Shown here piece by piece: positions 28,847 to 35,508 of a stretch of DNA of 45,210 bases. A program made the translations under genes and the position numbers. This DNA comes from Parcubacteria group bacterium (GTDB lineage: Bacteria; Patescibacteriota; JABMPQ01). Below the pieces are notes generated by a model. The model was not told where the DNA came from. It saw nothing but the letters and a program-made list of their open reading frames with translations, and did not search any database. Numbering within the stretch: position 1 is the stretch's first letter; the number at the start of each line of letters is the position of its first letter. Location of the stretch: assembly GCA_013202585.1 (NCBI GenBank), contig JABMPQ010000008.1, positions 1-45,210 of the forward strand. The letters run 5' to 3'.

Positions 28847-28987
28847 TTTCGTAATTTATAGTATAGATACAGATTAAACGAGCTCTTGAAAAGTGTCAAG
28901 GGAAGTGATAAGGTAGGGACAAATGAGTGGGTTGTAGGCCGCGGCGATAGGCCGGGGGTGTTTGTTTGTAGTTATTTTATTAATTAA

Positions 28988-29151
28988 GGGGCTATCACCA
29001 AGCACGCTTTCGTAACGAAATTTCTCAATTTCGGCCATAATCGTTTCAAAACCTTTTGGCTTATCTTAACAGATAGGCCGCAAGGTTTGCTCAACAATTC
29101 TGCTTCGAAATTGAGAAATTTCGTTACGAAAGCGTGCTTGGTGATAGCCCC
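28988..29151. repeat. Perfect 46-bp inverted repeat flanking a 72-nt centre with a nested hairpin
   Basis: 28988-29033 GGGGCTATCACCAAGCACGCTTTCGTAACGAAATTTCTCAATTTCG is the exact reverse complement of 29106-29151; inner stems 29049-29055/29082-29088 and 29058-29066/29071-29079. Confidence 0.97.
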
Positions 29152-29164
29152 ACAAGGAGGGAAC

Positions 29165-29560
29165 ATGAACAAACTAAAGGTTTTTTGGCGTGCGCACCAA
29201 AATAAAGTCATTCTGACAATCGGGGGAGTTTTACTGGCGATTGCCAGCTTCGGTGCTGGACGGCTAACAGTGCTAGAAAAATCAGAACCAGTGGTAATTG
29301 AGGATCCGGTTGAGCAAGTGAGTCAGTGTCCAAAATGTGCTGTTAATAAAGAAACGGCCGACGACGCCGAAGAAGAAGACGAGGACGAAGAGGAAGTAGA
29401 GCAAGGTGACTACGTCGCCAGCAAAAATGGCTCTAAGTATTACTTAACGACCTGCTCCGGCGCTAACCGAATAAAAGAGGAAAACAAGGTTTGGTTTGAC
29501 ACTGTCGATGAGGCCAAAGCCGAAGGTTACGAACCAGCCAAGAATTGTAAGGGACTTTAA
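29165..29560 (+). CDS. Membrane-anchored small protein with acidic linker and Ada-like Cys-containing C-terminal domain
   Basis: Start at ATG 29165 with SD AAGGAGGG directly after the inverted repeat; one TM helix, CPKC motif, acidic stretch, 'VASKNGSKYYLTTCSGANRIKEENKVWFDTVDEAKAEGYEPAKNC'. Confidence 0.75.
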   Translation: MNKLKVFWRAHQNKVILTIGGVLLAIASFGAGRLTVLEKSEPVVIEDPVEQVSQCPKCAVNKETADDAEEEDEDEEEVEQGDYVASKNGSKYYLTTCSGANRIKEENKVWFDTVDEAKAEGYEPAKNCKGL

Positions 29561-33153: not shown

Positions 33154-33264
33154 TGTGTTGTATTTTTTCGCAGCTGCGGGTATCTGAGGAGTCCCGACCT
33201 GCCTGCCGGCAGGCAGGTCTGATCGGGGGACGACGAGTTCCCGCAACAAAGAAAAAGCAACACA
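33154..33264. repeat. Foldback element containing a perfect 24-nt palindrome
   Basis: Outer TGTGTTG/CAACACA (33154-33160/33258-33264), TTTTTC/GAAAAA, TGCGGG/CCCGCA (33175-33180/33240-33245); palindrome GACCTGCCTGCCGGCAGGCAGGTC (33196-33219). Confidence 0.75.
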
Positions 33265-35429: not shown

Positions 35430-35508
35430 AAAGGGCTTCGCCCTTTGTTTACTTGTTCGCTCGCCCCGCAAGCTTGCGGGGGCAACTCCCTGCCTGCCGG
35501 CAGGCAGG
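35430..35508. repeat. Array of three consecutive perfect hairpins/palindromes
   Basis: AAAGGGC-TTC-GCCCTTT (35430-35446); CCCCGCAAGCTTGCGGGG (35464-35481); CCTGCCTGCCGGCAGGCAGG (35489-35508). Confidence 0.85.

Follow-up and report, generated by a model that had tools for sequence, protein, structure and literature searches.

A probable MITE-type hairpin element family in one genus of Patescibacteria, with one copy carrying perfect arms

The palindrome upstream of a membrane-anchored protein gene

The window (the whole stretch of 45,210 nucleotides that was analysed, on contig JABMPQ010000008.1 of a Parcubacteria group bacterium) contains one strong inverted repeat, the palindrome at positions 28988-29151, according to a repeat search over its full length. 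It is preceded by a promoter-like sequence and followed by the Shine-Dalgarno sequence of a gene encoding a small membrane-anchored protein. The features of the site are listed below.

28886-28914, + strand: promoter-like sequence TTGAAA-N17-TAAGGT, putative in function
28983-28987, + strand: ATTAA, left copy of a presumed 5-bp target-site duplication, decayed
28988-29151, + strand: whole copy of the probable MITE, 164 bp, subfamily A, forward orientation (family search, covariance model, alignment)
28988-29033, + strand: left arm, 46 nt, with right-arm-type CGCTTTCGTAACGAAA where the left arm of the family has CCATTTCTACTGCAA
29034-29105, + strand: centre, 72 nt, with an inner stem-loop, typical of subfamily A
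29106-29151, + strand: right arm, 46 nt, exact reverse complement of the left arm
29152-29156, + strand: ACAAG, right copy of the presumed 5-bp duplication, decayed, overlapping the start of the Shine-Dalgarno sequence
29154-29161, + strand: Shine-Dalgarno sequence AAGGAGGG
29165-29560, + strand: gene for a small membrane-anchored protein, found in the same context in the sister species

The geometry described in an earlier note on this DNA was reproduced in full. The two 46-nt arms, 72 nt apart, are 100% exact reverse complements, whereas exact inverted repeats reached no more than 11-15 nt in 20 random windows of matched dinucleotide make-up; the predicted fold of the strand has a free energy of -110.4 kcal/mol (z -18). 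The inner hairpin of the centre is present, with AAACCTT (29049-29055) facing AAGGTTT (29082-29088) around GGCTTATCT-TAAC-AGATAGGCC (29058-29079), and the right arm ends 2 nt before the Shine-Dalgarno sequence of the gene starting with ATG at 29165. The peptide KLRNFVTKACLVIAP, which the note had pointed out on both strands, is indeed read from both in the list of open reading frames; this follows from the palindrome and is no evidence of coding.

The repeat family and its insertions

The palindrome belongs to a dispersed repeat family. In the 1.22-Mb genome that contains the window, about 24 loci of the family were identified: 11 two-ended copies, 7 copies cut by contig ends, and 6 derivatives with internal deletions, roughly 27-66 nt long. 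The census combined searches with the 164-bp query, a subfamily-B query, a covariance model and the end pattern. Ten subfamily-A copies were used to build the covariance model, which retrieved the full-length copies of both A and B; subfamily B, the second subfamily, was detected with its separate query, and the end-pattern search contributed the short derivatives. Several draft contigs end inside family copies. Among the 7 cut copies, C31/C76 and C50/C18 were each read as two halves of one copy, since their flanking genes adjoin in the sister species (G001). G001 was the only genome of the genus searched besides that of the window, and it yielded 4 full copies plus a remnant. Matches were confined to these two among the seven genomes of the class, and none was found in 56 more distant relatives.

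The elements are about 164 bp long and non-coding, and are bounded by paired GGGnCTrTyrCC ends, which pair in all full copies; every full copy examined forms a hairpin over its whole length. The insertion targets are AT-rich intergenic DNA. The element ends were placed by eye from the pairing ends, prior to the duplication test. Over 16 copies, the 5-nt flanks agree at 51 of 80 positions, with 30.3 ± 4.2 expected from re-dealt flanks (z 4.95); the signal is specific to this length, none being seen in the same copies at lengths 3, 4 and 6-9. The duplications have decayed in most single copies, including that of the window, whose own flanks ATTAA and ACAAG agree at 3 of 5 positions, so that significance is reached only over the family. 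Perfect 5-bp duplications, ATTTA and AGATC, flank two copies in G001.

Further evidence for transposition comes from empty orthologous sites in G001, which were found for C38a, C50/C18 and C14b and are consistent with a single 5-bp target. The C38a site reads CTCCTT-ATTAA when empty and CTCCTT-TTAA-(element)-ATTAA when filled; that of C50/C18 reads TATACTGC-AATAA when empty and AACAT-(element)-AATAA when filled; and the C14b locus, minus the element and one 5-bp copy, has the length of the empty site and differs from it by a few substitutions. The sites matching the G001 copies G1C15a and G1C15b align poorly in their intergenic part, and the C67 site is occupied by unrelated sequence in G001. 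Finally, an identical 21-bp nested insert occupies the same position in C38a and C22b. Either one of them is thus a copy of the other or both derive from a parent copy, which indicates propagation by duplication.

A MITE-like element was one of the options named in the earlier note, together with a search for further genomic copies and target-site duplications, and it is this option that is borne out: both were found, along with paired ends and empty sites in the sister species. The family consists of short non-coding sequences with terminal inverted repeats, occurs in dispersed copies, and shows a duplication of fixed length and orthologous empty sites, as MITEs do. We therefore consider it to be a MITE-type non-autonomous DNA transposon whose whole length forms one hairpin, the perfect arms of the window copy being secondary (probability about 0.82). 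The insertions of this MITE family are demonstrated, and in the genomes searched it is restricted to a single genus of small-genome bacteria; a limited literature search retrieved nothing on MITEs in Patescibacteria. The element inserts into AT-rich intergenic DNA and duplicates a 5-bp target; its mobilisation would presumably depend on a transposase that acts on the paired ends in trans.

No transposase with matching ends was found in searches for Y1_Tnp, Tn3 and DDE_Tnp_1 in the two genomes, that of the window being 79% complete. Several candidate origins were rejected. First, REP/BIME sequences mobilised by a Y1 (RAYT) enzyme do not fit, as PF01797 is absent from both genomes and a 5-bp duplication is present. 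Second, miniature elements of the Tn3 family (TIMEs) have a 5-bp duplication, GGGG-type ends and AT-rich targets; their resemblance to the window family is by description only, and an origin from Tn3 was dismissed, since PF01526 is absent from both genomes and no convincing 38-bp end was seen. Third, an insertion sequence was noticed on G000 C49 (bases 8-929), encoding a DDE_Tnp_1 transposase in a 272-aa ORF; it is unrelated to the MITE family and was rejected as its parent because its 17-bp ends, ACCTGAATCCGGAAACC, differ from the family ends. Finally, a phage or plasmid origin was discarded, with no match in viral contigs (three exact patterns) or in phage and plasmid records (distant blastn).

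Among known elements, the family resembles Correia/NEMIS of Neisseria (about 105-155 bp), which are also short and intergenic, have terminal inverted repeats, lie near genes and yield a long stem-loop transcript (PMC2229807); however, Correia elements have TA ends and a 24-bp terminal repeat instead of GGGnCTrTyrCC and a 5-bp duplication, and there is no sequence match. ERIC (127 bp) and YPAL (about 168 bp) of enterobacteria are similar in size, whole-element hairpin and intergenic location, and filled and empty sites are known for YPAL (PMC2229807). On the other hand, ERIC has TA ends, and YPAL has duplications of 3 to 26 bp and internal inverted repeats, in contrast to the 5-bp duplication and pairing ends of the present family. 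QMITE2 of Coxiella, with terminal inverted repeats of 23-29 bp, direct repeats of 7-9 bp and a transcript fold of about -113 (PMC10969869), is near to the family but differs in sequence and duplication length. The C36 copy lies inside the loop of a hairpin, AAGCAATCTAC...GTAGATTGCTT, which is intact in the sister species. This position, together with the difference between species in the hairpin at the window site, recalls the stem-loop replacement of the IS1272 type (PMC5678879), where, unlike in the window family with its 5 bp, no target duplication occurs.

Arm matching, the perfect copy and strand polarity

The arms of the window copy match at 46 of 46 positions, while those of 12 other full copies (8 from the same assembly, of subfamilies A and B, and the rest from G001) have 34-39 matches over 46-48 aligned columns. 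The outer 18-bp stem varies between copies but is matched within each copy: a copy's own arms give 307 Watson-Crick cells of 339 in the outer stem, compared with 221 ± 10 for swapped arms (0 of 5000). In the structure of subfamily A, double changes affect 21 of 60 pairs (12.6 when shuffled), and the pairing disappears when the partners are shifted along. Inside the stem, left arms have CCATTYCKRCTGC and right arms, read as the reverse complement, mostly CGCTTTCGTAACGA; this mismatch is conserved in the 12 other full copies and lost in the window copy. In 12 of 12 comparisons the left arm of the window copy is nearer to the right arms of the other copies than to their left arms. The arms are thus perfect because the left one has right-arm sequence.

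The proposal of the earlier note that perfect identity reflects recent homogenisation is supported by the imperfect arms of the 12 other copies and by the right-arm sequence found in the left arm. On this view, an imperfect palindrome would have had one arm rewritten to match the other, most probably through intramolecular template switching when the hairpin was replicated, or else through conversion with another copy. The former is an established mechanism for imperfect palindromes (PMC7202029, PMC8604942, PMC8794818), and right-arm sequence in the left arm is its expected product. Either template-switch correction or inter-copy conversion is likely to be behind the perfect arms; conversion may have contributed, but alone it leaves the identical outer ends unexplained. 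Copies with differing arms and a single perfect copy provide a natural test of compensatory selection versus template-switch copying in the arm matching of palindromes.

A technical origin was considered as well. Contig breaks inside several family copies show that these repeats troubled the assembler, which could have built the left arm of a real element from right-arm reads in place of a true arm reading CCATTTCTACTGC. Such an error is very unlikely, as distinct arms were kept in the 12 other full copies and another assembly also has an element at the window site. Since that element is related to the window copy, a foldback artefact of the whole element, which the note had named as a refutation, is likewise unlikely.

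The imperfect copies have a strand polarity. In 12 of 12 of them the reverse-complement strand folds better as RNA, by 6-25 kcal/mol, and it also folds better as DNA. Mismatches of the outer stem on the displayed strand comprise 25 A.C and 4 G.U, the A.C mismatches being G.U on the other strand; the skew has p 0.003 against the swapped-arm background, with cells that are not independent. In the window copy, most of the polarity is lost. The copies lie in mixed orientations to host genes, and the polarity is therefore a property of the element and not of a host transcript. It would be accounted for by selection acting on a folded single strand or, alternatively, by strand-biased deamination.

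These observations, together with the double changes in 21 of 60 pairs, could be taken to mean that the family is primarily a structured RNA or single-stranded DNA under selection, in which the reverse-complement fold is kept and mobility is secondary. We regard this as rather unlikely: the orientation to host genes is mixed, no promoter was found in the window copy, where the polarity is also largely gone and the conserved internal mismatch absent, and no Rfam family reaches its gathering score, generic long-hairpin microRNA models alone being hit, far below it. An equally doubtful possibility is a mobile hairpin steered by the fold of the reverse-complement strand, with compensatory and G.U-tolerant changes kept whatever the orientation of insertion. 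If it holds, a folded single strand, RNA or DNA, would be part of the propagation or protection of the element, a single-strand role despite the 5-bp duplication typical of a double-strand DNA transposon.

The downstream gene and other repeats

In the sister species a subfamily-B element in the opposite orientation occupies the same site; its flanks are similar, and the promoter-like sequence is again found upstream. The element was therefore exchanged or newly inserted since the species split, and the history of the locus is not that of a simple shared insertion. The promoter-like sequence reads TTGAAA-N17-TAAAGT in the sister species; its window counterpart falls below the threshold of the promoter scan. 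A transcript initiated from 28886-28914 would carry, in a long 5'-UTR, a 164-nt hairpin that ends two bases short of AAGGAGGG, and a putative effect on the 29165 gene, such as 5'-end protection or RNase III-type double-strand cleavage, is possible. For about half of the other copies, too, a start codon is no more than some 25 nt away, and these copies occur in both orientations; the shortness of intergenic gaps could by itself account for this closeness.

Neisserial and enterobacterial MITEs are known to act on transcripts as 5'-UTR-type hairpins (PMC2229807), and the location of the hairpin between a conserved promoter-like sequence and the Shine-Dalgarno sequence, with an element there in the sister species too, would suit a 5'-UTR hairpin that acts in cis, as an attenuator or RNase III site, and is selected because it controls the 29165 gene. 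It is nevertheless unlikely that the element is kept for this purpose. The same family occurs beside many unrelated genes in both orientations, and the fixed orientation to host genes that a cis-regulator would need is ruled out by the mixed orientations across the family. Subfamily and orientation differ between the species at the site, as expected without selection for the 29165 gene. In addition, the stem is followed by no T-tract, which, with the mixed orientations, speaks against the strong attenuator, read as a Rho-independent terminator, suggested in the note.

The note had also suggested an invertible switch, in which inversion of the 72-nt centre between the arms would control the 29165 gene. 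Perfect arms would allow inversion, and the element at the same site in the sister species has the opposite orientation; however, it is of a different subfamily and not a flipped version of the window sequence. The promoter scan found no promoter-like site in the centre, no recombinase is evident among the neighbouring open reading frames listed, the centre itself is nearly palindromic, so that a flip would alter little, and the arms are imperfect in other copies. A switch is thus extremely improbable.

Several other repeats were noticed. A 20-bp perfect palindrome, CCTGCCTGCCGGCAGGCAGG, is present in the window at 33198-33217 and 35489-35508 and also in G000 C30, C38, C46, C50 and other contigs. 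Exact counts among 29 genomes are 23 in the genome of the window, 1 in the sister species, 4 in G005 and 1 in G012; in at least four cases it is nested in the loop of a hairpin element of the family. Another small palindrome, CCCCGCCGAGGCGGGG, or its complement is found inside two short derivatives of the family (G000 C70 and G000 C14:18106-18171). A repeat of about 145 nt, GGATAGCCAAAGC...CTTAAG, is common to the ends of G000 contigs C17, C14 and C7 and is probably a separate mobile or repeated element. A CIRCE-like repeat, TTAGCACTC...GAGTGCTAA, lies a short way downstream of the element on G000 C67, where it follows a promoter-like sequence and precedes an HrcA-like gene, an arrangement found in the sister species too.
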